Assembly (NCBI RefSeq): GCF_003664995.1
Contig: NZ_JFHL01000024.1
Location: 1-34,751, forward strand
Reading direction: 5' to 3'
Source of the DNA: Mesotoga sp. BH458_6_3_2_1
GTDB lineage: Bacteria > Thermotogota > Thermotogae > Petrotogales > Kosmotogaceae
Length of the DNA: 34,751 nucleotides
Under the pieces are notes generated by a model. It did not search any database. It was not told where the DNA came from and saw nothing but the letters and a program-made list of their open reading frames with translations. Within the stretch, counting starts at the first letter, position 1; the number at the start of each line of letters is the position of its first letter. Shown here one piece after another: positions 2,611 through 34,687 of this stretch. The translations under genes were made by a program, and so were the position numbers.

Positions 2611-3441
2611 TTGCTGGGAGCAATTGTTGGCGATATCGTCGGCTCGAGATTCGAGTTCAACAACCACCGAAGCAAAGCCTTTGATCTATTCACGGATGAC
2701 TGCTTTGCTACAGACGACAGTATAATGAGCCTTGCCGTCGCCAAAGCGATTATGAAGACTGAAAGTACCATCGACAAATCTCAGGGAGACTACAGACTGA
2801 GCAGTAGCTATAACCGTCTGCTGGGAGAGTTTGCAGTAAAATACATGCAGCAGATCGGTCGAAATTATCCAAACTGCGGTTATGGAGGAATGTTTGGAAG
2901 TTGGGTATTCAGCGCCAAGCCGGAGCCGTACAATAGCTTCGGCAACGGAGCGGCTATGCGCATCGGCCCTGCGGGATTCACTGCGCGAACTGAATCGGAA
3001 GCGATAAGCCTCTCAAAAACGATAACCTCTGTCACTCACGACCATCCGGAAGGCATAAAGGGGGCTGAGGCAACCACAATTGCCGTTTTCCTTGCGTGTC
3101 AAGGCTTCTCAAAGGGTGATATTCGCGTCAGGATCTCAAGAGATTACTACTCAATGGATTTCACAATCGACGAAATTCACTCATCATACGCCTTCAATGA
3201 AACCTGTCAGGAAACGGTGCCACAGGCCATACAGTGCTTCCTCGAATCAGATTCATTCGAAGACGCCATCCGTACTGCAGTTTCGCTTGGCGGAGACAGC
3301 GACACAATCGCGGCAATAACCGGAGCGATAGCCGAGGCTTACTATGGCATTCCGGACGACATAAGAAACAAGGCACTGTCCTATCTAGACGGAGAACTCC
3401 TTGCGATCTTCTTTGAATGGGAAGACTTCCTGAAATCATAA
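2611..3441 (+). CDS. ADP-ribosylglycohydrolase family protein
   Basis: A 276-residue protein of the DraG/ARH family (PF03747), Mg-dependent hydrolases that remove ADP-ribose from proteins or small molecules. Visible signatures are GAIVGDIVGSRFE (residues 3-15), the metal-binding TDDS at about 34-37, THDHPEG in the middle, and GGDSDTIAAITGAIAEAYYG near residue 226, which supplies the second metal-binding Asp pair. Length and motif order fit a complete single-domain enzyme. The start is TTG at 2611, with GGAGGT six bases upstream. No ADP-ribosyltransferase gene is visible beside it, so the physiological substrate stays open. The long repeat-rich intergenic region begins directly downstream. Confidence 0.88.
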   Translation: MLGAIVGDIVGSRFEFNNHRSKAFDLFTDDCFATDDSIMSLAVAKAIMKTESTIDKSQGDYRLSSSYNRLLGEFAVKYMQQIGRNYPNCGYGGMFGSWVFSAKPEPYNSFGNGAAMRIGPAGFTARTESEAISLSKTITSVTHDHPEGIKGAEATTIAVFLACQGFSKGDIRVRISRDYYSMDFTIDEIHSSYAFNETCQETVPQAIQCFLESDSFEDAIRTAVSLGGDSDTIAAITGAIAEAYYGIPDDIRNKALSYLDGELLAIFFEWEDFLKS

Positions 3442-3474
3442 AAATTATCGATAGCCAGATTTCGAATTGACCGT

Positions 3475-3583
3475 GGTTGCGGGTTGCAGGTTGGGGGTAG
3501 GAAAGAGCAAAGGATCAGTTGCAAGTTCCAAGTTGTGAGTTGTAAAAAAGGCCAGGGTCGGAGGTTGGTGGTTGGAGGTTCGT
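3475..3583. repeat. Three blocks of 7-bp repeats (consensus RGTTGNN)
   Basis: Each block has four in-phase 7-bp units. The first is 3475-3502 (GGTTGCG, GGTTGCA, GGTTGGG, GGTAGGA). The second is 3517-3544 (AGTTGCA, AGTTCCA, AGTTGTG, AGTTGTA). The third is 3556-3583 (GGTCGGA, GGTTGGT, GGTTGGA, GGTTCGT). The first and third are followed by the same tail, AAGAGCAAARG. A diverged fourth copy with the same tail is at 4046-4073. No protein is encoded. Confidence 0.7.
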
Positions 3584-3680
3584 AAGAGCAAAAGAAACTG
3601 GTTGGCCGTTGAGCGGTTCTCCTTTCTCCGAATAAAAAAACATGTTCTTCGTTCTTGGTAAAAGTGAAAAACGAATCGAG

Positions 3681-3769
3681 ATTCTGAATCAAGTTCAGAA
3701 TGACGGGTTCTTTCGCTCAGCGGAAAGCGGCTCTTACATTCGAGATCCCGATCAGTTGCATACCGGGAT
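3681..3769. repeat. Two REP-like hairpins
   Basis: Hairpin one pairs ATTCTGA (3681-3687) with TCAGAAT (3695-3701). Hairpin two pairs ATCCCG (3745-3750) with CGGGAT (3764-3769). Both right arms run directly into GAC, the same edge seen in the hairpin at 4169-4190, which suggests one family of REP-like palindromes. Confidence 0.55.
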
Positions 3770-3930
3770 GACCCTTAAAGGAGCATTTAAGCTGTTGTTG
3801 TTGATTTTTGCCTTATTCGGGGGACGGGGAACCGTTGACGGACAACGTAGTCTTCGGCTTCAACGGTTTCTTTAAAGAGGCTCTTCTGCCCGCGAAACAG
3901 GCCTTGCGTCTTTGAGAGGGCTTCCTCTTC

Positions 3931-3950
3931 GGGCGAACCGCCGTTCGCCC
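3931..3950. repeat. Perfect inverted repeat
   Basis: GGGCGAAC (3931-3938), a 4-base loop CGCC, then GTTCGCCC (3943-3950). There is no T-run on either side, so it is a palindromic repeat rather than a clear terminator. Confidence 0.5.
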
Positions 3951-4045
3951 CTACAGAATCACCTAAGATTGTCATCCCGTAGAGCCTGCCCTGAAGTGCT
4001 CCTGTTAAGGGTTCCTATACGGGATCTGGGCTTTTGAGAAACCGG

Positions 4046-4140
4046 GGTCGGGGGTTACAGGTAGGGGGTTGGTAAGAACAAAGGAACTGGTCTATCGTTG
4101 AGCGGTTATTCGTTCGCCGAGGAGAACCTGTTCTTCGTTC
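4046..4140. repeat. Second copy of the heptad-plus-tail repeat
   Basis: Units GGTCGGG, GGTTACA, GGTAGGG and GGTTGGT (4046-4073) precede AAGAACAAAGGAACTGGT, then CGTTGAGCGGTTAT and GTTCTTCGTTCTTGG. The order and much of the sequence match 3556-3660, so these are two diverged copies of one roughly 100-bp composite element. Confidence 0.7.
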
Positions 4141-4168
4141 TTGGTCAGGGTCAAGAACCAAGAGCGAG

Positions 4169-4190
4169 ATGCCGGATCTAGGTCCGGCAT
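4169..4190. repeat. REP-like hairpin
   Basis: ATGCCGGA (4169-4176), loop TCTAGG, TCCGGCAT (4183-4190), followed by GACG. This is an 8-bp perfect stem. The flanking GAC matches the other palindromes of the region. Confidence 0.6.
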
Positions 4191-4380
4191 GACGAAAAGT
4201 GAGGTTGTGAGAATTCCTTACGGATCGCGATGCTAAAACTATTTCAGATGACTGCATTTGCCGTTTTCTTACTCTAGGCAACTTGCAACTGCTCTTCGAA
4301 GGACGGTCCATGATGTTAAACGGTTAACGAAAAATGGCTCTTCAAAGCGTGGCGTTTCATCTAGAGGGCTATGATTGACT

Positions 4381-4409
4381 TTGGAATTTGACACCTTACT
4401 GTCTATAAT
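4381..4409 (+). promoter_or_regulatory. Sigma-70-type promoter of the Opp/Dpp operon
   Basis: TTGGAA (4381-4386), a 17-base spacer and a perfect TATAAT (4404-4409). It lies 38 bases upstream of the binding-protein start codon. Confidence 0.6.
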
Positions 4410-4447
4410 TTAATGATGTATCAAAATCTTTAAAAGGGGTGAAACTC

Positions 4448-6097
4448 ATGAAAAAGGTTCTTGTAATCTTGACTATCGTCTCACTAGTGATTTCAGCGAG
4501 TCTTTTCGCCGCCGAGATCAAGAGAGGAGGTACCCTCAGAATTACCTCGATCAAGCAGGGGATTCTGATCGAGAACTTCAACCCCTTCTCGCCGAACACC
4601 AATGAGATGGCAATTGGTGGTTTCTACGAGACTCTCATATACTTCAACCCGATGACCGGAAGGATCATGGACTGGCTTGCAGAAAGCTATGAGTGGTCCG
4701 ACGACCTTCTGGAGCTGACTTTCAATCTGAGAGAGGGAGTTCTGTGGAATGACGGGATGCTCTTCACGGAGAAAGACGTTCTCTTCACAGTCGGACTGGG
4801 AAAAGACAACAGGGCACTGGACGTCGCAAATCTCTGGTCAACAGGAGTCACCGGAGTTCGATCTGACGAGCCGATGACTGTGACTTTCACGTTTTCATCT
4901 GTAGACACAACTATCATCCAGAGATTCTCGAGTCTCTTCATTGTTCCCGAGCACATCTGGTCGAAAGTCGATGATCCTCTAACCTGGATCGGTGAAGGAA
5001 TTCCCGTAGGCACCGGACCATTTATTCTGAAGGAAGGCTCATTCAGCGAGCAGTCGTTCAGTGTGGTCAGAAATCCAAATTACTGGCAAATTGGCGAAGA
5101 CGGCAAACCTCTTCCTTACATAGACGAAGTCCTGACGCTGACCACAACCAACGAGCAGGTTCCTCTAAGACTCGCCAGGGGCGAATTCGACTGGGCGGGA
5201 TACTTCGTTGCCAATATCGATGAGGTGTTCGTAAAAGCCGATCCCGAGAACTTCAAGTACTGGCTTCCCGAAGGAAACCTGGTCTTCTTGAATCTAAACA
5301 ATCTCAAGTGGCCCTTCGATAGCTACAATTTGAGGGCGGCTATAGCCGCAGCGATAGACCCGTTCGAGATTACCAGGATAATGGCCAGTGGTGCAGTCCC
5401 CGCTTCGCTAGCCGGCGTAAAGGCAAGCTACCTTAGGCTGGCCGAGAAGGGTCTAGGTGAATACGGCATAGAATACGATCCAGATTACGCAAGATATCTC
5501 ATTGAAAAGGAAGGCTACAAGCTTAACAGAAGCGGGATTTACGAAAAGGACGGCAAGGCTCTCTCACTGAATCTATATGTGCCTACAGGTTGGACCGACT
5601 GGATAATGGGAGCCGAAGAGGTTGCAAGGCAACTGAAAGAGATCGGAATCGAAGCTATCGTTACTCTAGCCGCATGGCCTTCTCCTTACAAAGACATGAT
5701 GTTCAACGGAAACTACGAAATGCTTTTCGGAATCTCCGTCACTGGAACCAGTCCTTATTACCAGTTCGACAACTGGGTGCATTCCAAGCATTGGGCGCCA
5801 ATAGGAGAAAATGCGGGCAATTACTACGGAATGCGTTACAAAAACGACAGGATCGACGAACTCCTCGATAGTTACAAGAAGCAGACCGATCCTAAAGCCC
5901 AGGATGAGATAATGGAAGAGGTTATAACGATCTTCCTGAGAGATCTTCCCTCCGTACCTATGTTCTTCAACCCCGTTTGGTTTGAGTACAGCACAAGGAA
6001 TTTCGTTGGCTGGCCGAGTGCAGAGAACCCATACGCAGAGCCAAGACCGACCGGAATGGACAAGATGCCGATCTTGCTTTCTATACACCTGAGATAG
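4448..6097 (+). CDS. ABC transporter substrate-binding protein, family 5 (oligopeptide/oligosaccharide)
   Basis: A 549-residue extracellular solute-binding protein of the SBP_bac_5 (OppA/DppA) family. It has an N-terminal signal peptide (two Lys, then a hydrophobic stretch ending near ASLFAAE at about residues 16-22) and then RGGTLRI, the usual mature start of the family. Later come an EKDVLFTV segment and the PVGTGPFILKE motif typical of this fold. No lipobox cysteine is visible, so it is probably a free or differently anchored protein. I chose ATG at 4448 because AAAGGGGTG sits at the right distance; a GTG at 4439 is in frame but overlaps that site. It heads the importer operon and sets its specificity. 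In Thermotogales many such transporters carry oligosaccharides rather than peptides, so the ligand is open. Confidence 0.9.
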   Translation: MKKVLVILTIVSLVISASLFAAEIKRGGTLRITSIKQGILIENFNPFSPNTNEMAIGGFYETLIYFNPMTGRIMDWLAESYEWSDDLLELTFNLREGVLWNDGMLFTEKDVLFTVGLGKDNRALDVANLWSTGVTGVRSDEPMTVTFTFSSVDTTIIQRFSSLFIVPEHIWSKVDDPLTWIGEGIPVGTGPFILKEGSFSEQSFSVVRNPNYWQIGEDGKPLPYIDEVLTLTTTNEQVPLRLARGEFDWAGYFVANIDEVFVKADPENFKYWLPEGNLVFLNLNNLKWPFDSYNLRAAIAAAIDPFEITRIMASGAVPASLAGVKASYLRLAEKGLGEYGIEYDPDYARYLIEKEGYKLNRSGIYEKDGKALSLNLYVPTGWTDWIMGAEEVARQLKEIGIEAIVTLAAWPSPYKDMMFNGNYEMLFGISVTGTSPYYQFDNWVHSKHWAPIGENAGNYYGMRYKNDRIDELLDSYKKQTDPKAQDEIMEEVITIFLRDLPSVPMFFNPVWFEYSTRNFVGWPSAENPYAEPRPTGMDKMPILLSIHLR

Positions 6098-21640: not shown

Positions 21641-21680
21641 TCCCTTGTTCTTAAGGACTCTCCCTTGTTCTTAAGGACTC
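21641..21680. repeat. Perfect 20-bp tandem duplication
   Basis: TCCCTTGTTCTTAAGGACTC occurs twice in a row (21641-21660 and 21661-21680) without a mismatch. Each unit contains the small palindrome CCTT...AAGG. Confidence 0.85.
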
Positions 21681-26657: not shown

Positions 26658-26820
26658 GACTACCCCCTTTATTTAGAGACAGACAGACTGCCTGCCGTTG
26701 TAGATTGCTCGAAACTCTGGTCAATTAACAGCGAAGCTCTTGTCGACCGTCTTTCCGGAAAGAATTCTTGGCCGGGTCTTTCTTGAGAAGACCATGTTAA
26801 GTATAACTCGTTCTAATATG

Positions 26821-26848
26821 AAAAAAACCCCCGAACGAATCGAGGGTT
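26821..26848 (-). terminator. Rho-independent terminator of tRNA-Pro
   Basis: On the minus strand AACCCTCGA pairs with TCGGGGGTT around a 5-base loop (9 bp, one G-U), followed by seven T including the end of the stem. It starts two bases after the encoded CCA. Confidence 0.88.
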
Positions 26849-26850
26849 CT

Positions 26851-26926
26851 TGGTCGGGGCGACTGGACTTGAACCAGCGACCTTCTGCGCCCCATGCAGA
26901 CACGCTTCCAACTGCGCTACGCCCCG
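26851..26926 (-). tRNA. tRNA-Pro (anticodon GGG)
   Basis: A 76-base cloverleaf on the minus strand. The acceptor stem CGGGGCG pairs perfectly with CGCCCCG. The D arm is GCGC...GCGT. The anticodon stem TCTGC/GCAGA encloses a loop ATGGGGC with anticodon GGG and G at position 37. The T arm is GCTGG-TTCAAGT-CCAGT. Discriminator A is followed by a genome-encoded CCA. A good promoter lies upstream and a terminator directly downstream, so it is a single-gene unit. Confidence 0.95.
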
Positions 26927-26935
26927 TACTCGAAG

Positions 26936-26964
26936 ATTCTATCACAGTTGGGATAACCTTTCAA
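26936..26964 (-). promoter_or_regulatory. Promoter of tRNA-Pro
   Basis: On the minus strand TTGAAA (26964-26959), a 17-base spacer and TAGAAT (26941-26936), nine bases before the tRNA 5' end. Confidence 0.7.
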
Positions 26965-27017
26965 GAGCAGAACGACGCCCAGGGCAACTTTCAGACAATG
27001 AAAATTGGCTATGCAGG

Positions 27018-27482
27018 CTACTCCCTGACCTCGAAGGTTAGGAAGTCTATCTCTATGCCACCGTTGTCGGAATCATTCAGTCTGAAGTCGTAGAATCCGG
27101 TATCCCAGGGAGCGGTAAATACAATCAAACCGTCTGTCATGCCACCGACGTAAGCATACTGAACGTCGTGCAGGTCGTTTTCCGACTCGCTTCCATGTGG
27201 AATATCCGAGGGGATGATTCCGATCCAGGCGTAAGACCCGAGTCCCGAAGTCCCGAAGAAATAGAGATTGATCTCTTCACCGGGAACGAAAGCGACTTTG
27301 TCGAGACTCATATACTTGGATTCCAAAGGTAACTCATCGTCTGCAACGTATACCAGACTCTCGATTTCATCGAGATAGAATTCGTAGATTGAACCGTCCT
27401 TCAAAGTAATAACCAGCAATCCACTTGCAAACGCCGTAACACACAATGCCGCAATCATAAGAAAAGCAAGCGTCTTTTTCAT
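27018..27482 (-). CDS. Small secreted protein, function unknown
   Basis: A 154-residue protein with a clear Sec signal peptide (MKKTLAFLMIAALCVTAFAS, cleavage near residue 20). The mature part is acidic and strand-rich, starting with a short LVITLKDGSIYEFYLDEIESL hairpin. It continues with a region like an Ig/beta-sandwich fold (KVAFVPGEEINLYFFGTSG ... TAPWDTGFYDFRLND). I recognise no named family; the shape suggests an extracellular or periplasmic binding module. ATG at 27482 has GAGGAGGTG at good spacing; the open frame goes ten codons further but without a start site. It is divergent from the NifX-like gene. Confidence 0.75.
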   Translation of the reverse strand: MKKTLAFLMIAALCVTAFASGLLVITLKDGSIYEFYLDEIESLVYVADDELPLESKYMSLDKVAFVPGEEINLYFFGTSGLGSYAWIGIIPSDIPHGSESENDLHDVQYAYVGGMTDGLIVFTAPWDTGFYDFRLNDSDNGGIEIDFLTFEVRE

Positions 27483-33472: not shown

Positions 33473-34687
33473 TCAGCTTATGTACTTAGCTAATCTTTCA
33501 TACTTTATCACAAGTTGAGTAAGGATCCTGGACCAATCAAGAGTTCTTACTGTCCATTTCTTTGTTATGTTCATTATTGCTAGATAAGCCATCTTTAAGA
33601 GAGAATTGTCTGTTGGAAAGACTCCTTTGTTCTTCGTTACCTTCCTCAGTTGTCTATTAACTGATTCAATGGGATTAGTTGTATAAACCAATCTTCTCAG
33701 TTCCTCTGGATATTGAAAGAAGGTTGAGAGAGTTTCCCAGTTATCCTTCCAGCTTTTTATTGACAAGTGGTATTTGTCGCCCCACTTCTCTTCTAGTGCA
33801 AGTAATGCATTCCATCCCGCCTCTCTTGTAGGTGCCTGATAAATTGTCTTGAGATCGCGTGCTAGAGGTCTACGATCCCTCCAGGTAACATATCTCATGG
33901 TGTTCCTTATCTGGTGAACTATGCACTTCTGAACCTCTGAGAATGGATATACAGCCTCTATGGCTTCTTCCATTCCGCTTAATGCATCTATTGAGAAGAT
34001 TGCCACGTCTTCAACCCCGCGATTCTTCAATTCGTTGAGAATGCTTAGCCAGTAGCTTGCTCCTTCTGTTTCACTTATCCACATGCCTAGAATGTCTTTG
34101 TGGCCATTTAGGGATACTCCTAAGGCTATATAGAGTGCTTTCTTCCTTACCTGGTTGCTTTCAACGACCCTGAAGAATACGGCATCCATGTAGACTATCG
34201 CATACGCAGATTCTAATGGTCTGTTTCTCCATTCGGAGACCAGTGGCAGTATCTTGTCCGTTATCCTGCTTACGCTCTCTGCAGACAATCTGGAACCGTA
34301 GATATCCTCTATATGACTCTGAATATCTCTTACTGTCATTCCCCTTGCATACATGGAGATTATCTGATCCTCTATACCAGAAATGTCCCTCTGGTGTTTC
34401 TTCACAACAACCGGTTCAAATTCACCTTTCCTGTCTCTTGGTATCTCAAGTTCTATTTCTCCGTAATCGCTCCTAACTGTCTTCTTGCTATGTCCATTCC
34501 TGGAATTGTCAGTCTCTTTGTTCTTGTAGTCATGCTTCGAATATCCAAGCTCATCTTCCAGTTCTCCTTCAAGCATTTCTTTGATTACGTCACCAAACAA
34601 TTCCTTCATTGCCTCTTGAACATCTCCGACATCTTCAAATCCATTCTTCTCGATTAACGACTTGATCTTTTCTCTGTCAAATTTCAT
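33473..34687 (-). CDS. IS256-family (Mutator-like) transposase
   Basis: A full-length 404-residue transposase. The DDE catalytic residues are Asp168 (VYMDAVFF), Asp234 (FSIDALSGMEEAI, the IS256 signature) and Glu341 in TTNPIESVNRQLRK. The N-terminal half is the DNA-binding part, with SRNGHSKKT and IPRDRKGEFEP, typical of the family. The ATG ending at 34687 has GGAGGG upstream. No frameshift or premature stop is visible, so the element may be active. Confidence 0.95.
   Translation of the reverse strand: MKFDREKIKSLIEKNGFEDVGDVQEAMKELFGDVIKEMLEGELEDELGYSKHDYKNKETDNSRNGHSKKTVRSDYGEIELEIPRDRKGEFEPVVVKKHQRDISGIEDQIISMYARGMTVRDIQSHIEDIYGSRLSAESVSRITDKILPLVSEWRNRPLESAYAIVYMDAVFFRVVESNQVRKKALYIALGVSLNGHKDILGMWISETEGASYWLSILNELKNRGVEDVAIFSIDALSGMEEAIEAVYPFSEVQKCIVHQIRNTMRYVTWRDRRPLARDLKTIYQAPTREAGWNALLALEEKWGDKYHLSIKSWKDNWETLSTFFQYPEELRRLVYTTNPIESVNRQLRKVTKNKGVFPTDNSLLKMAYLAIMNITKKWTVRTLDWSRILTQLVIKYERLAKYIS

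Follow-up and report, generated by a model that had tools for sequence, protein, structure and literature searches.

Mosaics of short intergenic modules and palindromes are familiar from the BIME/REP arrays of enterobacteria and the NIME arrays of Neisseria; none of these arrays is known to contain heptad blocks. Bacterial intergenic DNA has been known for decades to carry heptamer repeats, but no mechanism has been given for them. The Geobacter metallireducens elements consist of four tandem 7-mers (GGGACCG), are G-rich and dispersed, and occur in 49 copies; the accessible text of that report presents a single block type, found also inside genes, and describes no linkers, palindromes or strand polarity (PMC2700814). 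The GGGNATC heptamers of Xanthomonas and GGGGA(C/T)T heptamers of Nostoc are intergenic with G-quadruplex potential, and in Xanthomonas four units are commonest, although the longest Xanthomonas runs have 26 units and the runs favour neither the leading nor the lagging strand (PMC4692102). The TAACTGA direct repeats of marine Beggiatoaceae are intergenic heptamers of 2–6 units with a GTT/AAC core but lie mostly just upstream of start codons, and the accessible part of their description reports no composite with palindromes (PMC4679880). E. coli REPs occur on both strands without clear clustering, and M. prima was among the genomes surveyed for REP candidates (PMC12306157). The literature searched held no description of the Mesotoga composite analysed here or of its polarity. 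It resembles the Geobacter and Xanthomonas/Nostoc repeats in its 7-mers and the BIME/REP and NIME arrays in its mosaic of short modules and palindromes. Strand polarity, local spread and a limit of four units, the last seen in two genera, are what it brings in addition; they are testable clues to repeat origin and to the recurrence of the number four in Geobacter and Xanthomonas.

The window, the whole stretch of DNA analysed, is contig C24 (34,751 nucleotides) of the 3.23-Mb draft genome of Mesotoga sp. BH458_6_3_2_1 (G000). The composite occupies the gap between an ADP-ribosylglycohydrolase-like gene (ending at 3441) and a peptide-binding transport gene (starting at ~4439), both named by eye from their translations. 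The features of the gap are listed below; the palindromes, the run at 3819–3846 and the B' block were read directly from the sequence.

3475–3502, plus strand: A block 1, GGTTGCG GGTTGCA GGTTGGG GGTAGGA, GGTTGNN-type x4; also at this locus in G002, G007 and G008
3503–3516, plus strand: A-rich linker/tail, AAGAGCAAAGGATC
3517–3544, plus strand: B block, AGTTGCA AGTTCCA AGTTGTG AGTTGTA
3556–3583, plus strand: A block 2, GGTCGGA GGTTGGT GGTTGGA GGTTCGT; two-tier G-quadruplex motif
3584–3599, plus strand: A-rich linker/tail, AAGAGCAAAAGAAACT
3600–3630, plus strand: C block, GGTTGGCCGTTGAGCGGTTCTCCTTTCTCCG, heptad-periodic
3643–3658, plus strand: D block, TGTTCTT CGTTCTT GG; tail searched in three genomes
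3679–3704, minus strand: REP-like palindrome, AGATTCTGAATCAAGTTCAGAATGAC, with GTCAT...ATCT feet on the minus strand; stem type polar in G000 and G003
3819–3846, plus strand: another 7-periodic run, GGGGGAC GGGGAAC CGTTGAC GGACAAC
3971–4027, plus strand: REP-like palindrome, GTCATCCCGTA...TACGGGATCT, with a long inner part
4046–4073, plus strand: A block 3, GGTCGGG GGTTACA GGTAGGG GGTTGGT
4074–4088, plus strand: linker/tail, AAGAACAAAGGAACT
4089–4119, plus strand: C block 2, a profile match
4129–4144, plus strand: D block 2; tail searched in three genomes
4167–4193, minus strand: REP-like palindrome, AGATGCCGGATCTAGGTCCGGCATGAC
4278–4297, minus strand: B' block, opposite sense, GCAACTT GCAACTG CTCTTC

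The four blocks of four in-phase heptads noted in a preliminary description of this DNA were recovered at 3475–3502, 3517–3544, 3556–3583 and 4046–4073, as were the AAGARCAAARG tail after three of them and the further shared sequences CGTTGAGCGGTT (3607–3618 and 4095–4106) and GTTCTTCGTTCTTGG (3644–3658 and 4130–4144). Its heptad consensus, RGTTGNN, is slightly over-strict, since position 4 can be T, A or C and position 5 G, C or A. Scored for RGTTG over four units, the blocks reached 17–19 of 20. When 20 random sequences with matching dinucleotide composition were generated by a first-order Markov model, neither strand of any of them had a site scoring at least 17.

Further copies, as that description predicted, were abundant. 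A 236-bp query matched 85 places in G000, including the window's own, and gave 12–56 matches in each of six of the nine genus relatives (G002, G003, G006, G007, G008 and G009). The complete same-genus genome G003 (2,974,229 bp) carried 56. One match each was found in G004 and G005, and none in G001. The copies were clustered, with long empty stretches between them. Seven-base periodicity was also apparent in intergenic DNA at large: there, 4-mers recurred at lag 7 at 9.9 per 1000 compared to ~5 per 1000 at neighbouring lags, and at 4.6 per 1000 in coding DNA. Both G003 and G001 had intergenic lag-7 recurrence at ~2x background, and the Kosmotoga-like genome G030 had more, with no excess in coding DNA. 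The repeat is thus the visible part of a broader feature of intergenic DNA, in which the heptads differ by species. G001 had its own mosaic with four-unit GGGTNNN heptads (L132, L133 and L139), in which relative module orientation was kept within a cluster. At L221 (2080–2700), a different modular repeat was seen, with GACGCAAGGC units spaced by differing small hairpins.

Copies followed a common grammar: an A block (GGTNGGN), the linker AAAGAGCAAAGGA, a C block (GGTTGAC CGTTGAN CGGTTCT CCGTTCN CCG), a B block (AGTTGCA, AGTTCCA, AGTTGTG, AGTTGTA), AAAAAGGCC, a second A block, a linker, a C block and a D block (TGTTCTT CGTTCTT GG). The mosaic contains several heptad kinds (GGTNGGN, AGTTSNN, CGTTGAN/CGTTCTC and GTTCTTC) joined via A-rich linkers. 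Many copies, not all, sat between a hairpin-forming GTCAT...ATCT palindrome of varying stem on the plus strand and its inverse. Blocks were truncated, lost or re-assorted, and pieces were missing or re-ordered in many copies. The four-unit block is a defined module, but the composite is not a single element copied as a whole: its modules vary in combination and truncation.

Unit number did not vary randomly. The GT-rich A block measured 27–29 bp in most copies, and strict GGTN[GC] runs of 2, 3, 4 and 5 or more units numbered 33, 13, 21 and 0 in G000 and 28, 4, 9 and 0 in G003. GTTG runs in G030 gave 5, 2, 9 and 0. Other heptad types reached five units twice, once with AGTT in G000 and once with GGGT in G030, and AGTT runs elsewhere had 2–5 units. 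Four units is therefore the ceiling and the mode for the A block, and is not binding on every block. The locus shares tandem 7-bp units in non-coding DNA with STRR-like heptameric intergenic repeats, and lacks the freely varying number of like units that marks a simple sequence repeat. As the preliminary description stated, it is not an ordinary microsatellite: unit numbers stop at four, unequal units recur in the same order across copies and the linkers are conserved. In our best reading, the composite is a single member of a BIME-like family of intergenic repeats, modular and non-autonomous, in Mesotoga-like Thermotogota.

A G-quadruplex needs four tracts, the same number as the unit limit, and the A block may, judging from its sequence, be a minimal one. 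A G-quadruplex motif was present in 43 of 46 A blocks compared to 64% of shuffles, in a set chosen by a regular expression that itself demands GG or GT at heptad starts. Quadruplex formation cannot explain the 7-bp period of the B, C and D blocks, which lack G-tracts.

Presence at this locus is lineage-specific. The orthologous spacer in G003 (~312 bp) held no module, and G007, G002 and G008 shared the first A block and diverged completely after it. For G003, module loss may be an alternative to gain elsewhere. Elsewhere, two species (L179 versus L089) differed by ~240 bp, gained or lost between direct repeats. Similarity was also local: 32 of 103 copies, against 5.8 expected, had their most similar non-adjacent copy within 60 kb, as did 20 of 66 against 4.8 expected, 4–6 times more often than by chance. 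A duplication in G003 with copies ~76 kb apart falls beyond this 60-kb limit. Gene conversion between near copies could be another source of local similarity.

The copies were strongly polar along the chromosome. An iterated profile of the A-C-D part gave 161 matches at E 1e-5 or better, with stretches sampled around copies, and 95 of 97 profile matches in G000 were on the majority strand of their contig. With copies grouped into independent clusters separated by 3 kb or more, G000 had 38 clusters, of which 36 shared the orientation of the others on their contig (p = 5e-9). In G003, orientation changed in a few large blocks, mostly tracking GC skew, with 8 switches among 39 clusters (permutation p 0.0003). 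Those near 0.9–1.3 and 2.73–2.82 Mb coincided with sign changes of third-position GC skew, and the reversed block at ~1.70–2.05 Mb could be an inversion. With replication direction read from skew only, which is weak in parts of G003, orientation agreed with codon-position-3 GC skew in 23 of 30 G003 clusters (p 0.005; seven disagreed) and in 14 of 18 G000 contigs, the GT-rich strand being opposite to the G-rich leading strand in the same proportions. Other recurrent intergenic words, palindromes included, were also polar, with a minor-strand share of 7% in G000 and 18% in G003. In G001, which is without the composite, the different mosaic flips between neighbouring clusters, so polarity is not general; nor was polarity seen in Kosmotoga G030, where heptads often form inverted pairs. 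Regional polarity would follow from local spread in one sense alone; it is the agreement with skew across separate contigs that suggests a link to replication.

We favour, at roughly even confidence, a modular BIME-like family whose copying is local and strand-specific and probably takes place at the replication fork, with reshuffling by recombination and a structural four-unit limit. Modules would enter non-coding DNA close by through copying from a single-stranded or switched template at the fork, which would keep their orientation, and recombination between direct repeats would afterwards add and delete pieces. A structural unit would underlie the four-unit limit of the GT-rich block, most likely a G-quadruplex of four tracts on the strand serving as template for the leading strand. 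The evidence supports no particular role of the modules in the host. A broader version is speculative and improbable: a new replication-linked copying activity in Kosmotogaceae would generate 28-bp heptad tetramers of many sequence types and spread them locally and in one direction, independently of transposase or reverse transcriptase.

Polarity could also arise if a Y1 (RAYT/IS200-like) transposase, working in trans on the single-stranded template of the lagging strand, mobilised REP-type elements, and the palindromes flanking the heptads and the Y1 proteins in G000, G001, G006 and G007 fit this scheme. A dedicated transposase, suggested earlier as a check, was nevertheless not found: G003, with its 56 matches, had no Y1 hit, and the inspected Y1 genes in G000 (contig C7), G006 and G007 adjoin a different repeat, AAATGGGGACTGAC...GTCTGTACCC, rather than the same palindromes as the heptads, as a RAYT-mobilised REP/REPIN would. 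Reverse transcriptase gave no hit in G006 and G009 despite 39 and 21 matches, so neither enzyme is required for module presence. We regard mobilisation by Y1 as unlikely. RAYT-like Y1 transposase genes flanked by the AAATGGGGACTGAC...GTCTGTACCC palindrome were located at L150 (1039–1902), L148 and L149, and G030 had a similar palindrome, GGGGACAGTCCCC. Separately, group II introns (Rfam RF00029, RF01999 and RF02001) were observed within the repeat mosaic of G003 (L106 7120–9150; L102 3675–18648), some beginning right after a GTCAT...ATCTG palindrome or finishing beside a heptad block, mostly in the same orientation as the mosaic.

Somewhat less probable still is a selected motif that gives the chromosome direction (KOPS/SRS-like), or an array for a protein with four 7-bp contacts. 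Polarity and the fixed four-unit size would suit either, but the composite is absent or nearly so in three genus members, its copies leave long stretches of chromosome empty, and it includes unrelated modules that are also polar.

We consider it very unlikely that the composite acts as a transcribed regulatory RNA or 3'-UTR element. Its intergenic position and the excess of convergent over divergent gaps are compatible with such a role, but orientation relative to flanking genes showed no preference (++ 44, -- 37, convergent 35, divergent 18), which speaks against gene-linked orientation and answers the earlier proposal to compare copy strand with genes. Folding with DNA parameters was no better than shuffles (z -0.7 and -1.0), which speaks against a stable single-strand structure, and an Rfam search of 3400–4450 returned nothing up to E 1. 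Ordinary tandem repeats made by slippage and landed by chance in old intergenic DNA are extremely improbable given the ceiling, the ordered unequal units and the conserved linkers, even though many bacteria carry heptad repeats (PMC4692102) and other phyla have long arrays of them.

Three GGTT heptads together with AAGARCAA matched seven times in a scan of the genome-contig collection; of these matches, at least five or six resemble heptad arrays in other phyla and one, in a long reading frame, looks like chance. We claim no transfer from these: about one was expected by base composition, GGTT arrays are common and the shared tail may be chance. Nor is enrichment claimed from a phylum-wide GTTS heptad scan, which was read by its counts and whose reversed control pattern had half the sites in common with it. 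Elsewhere in the window, the ORF at 26740–27093 overlaps a tRNA-Pro gene (26851–26926, minus strand) and is probably spurious, the ORF at 33473–34687 resembles, by eye, an IS256-type (mutator) transposase, and 21641–21680 is a perfect tandem duplication of the 20-mer TCCCTTGTTCTTAAGGACTC.
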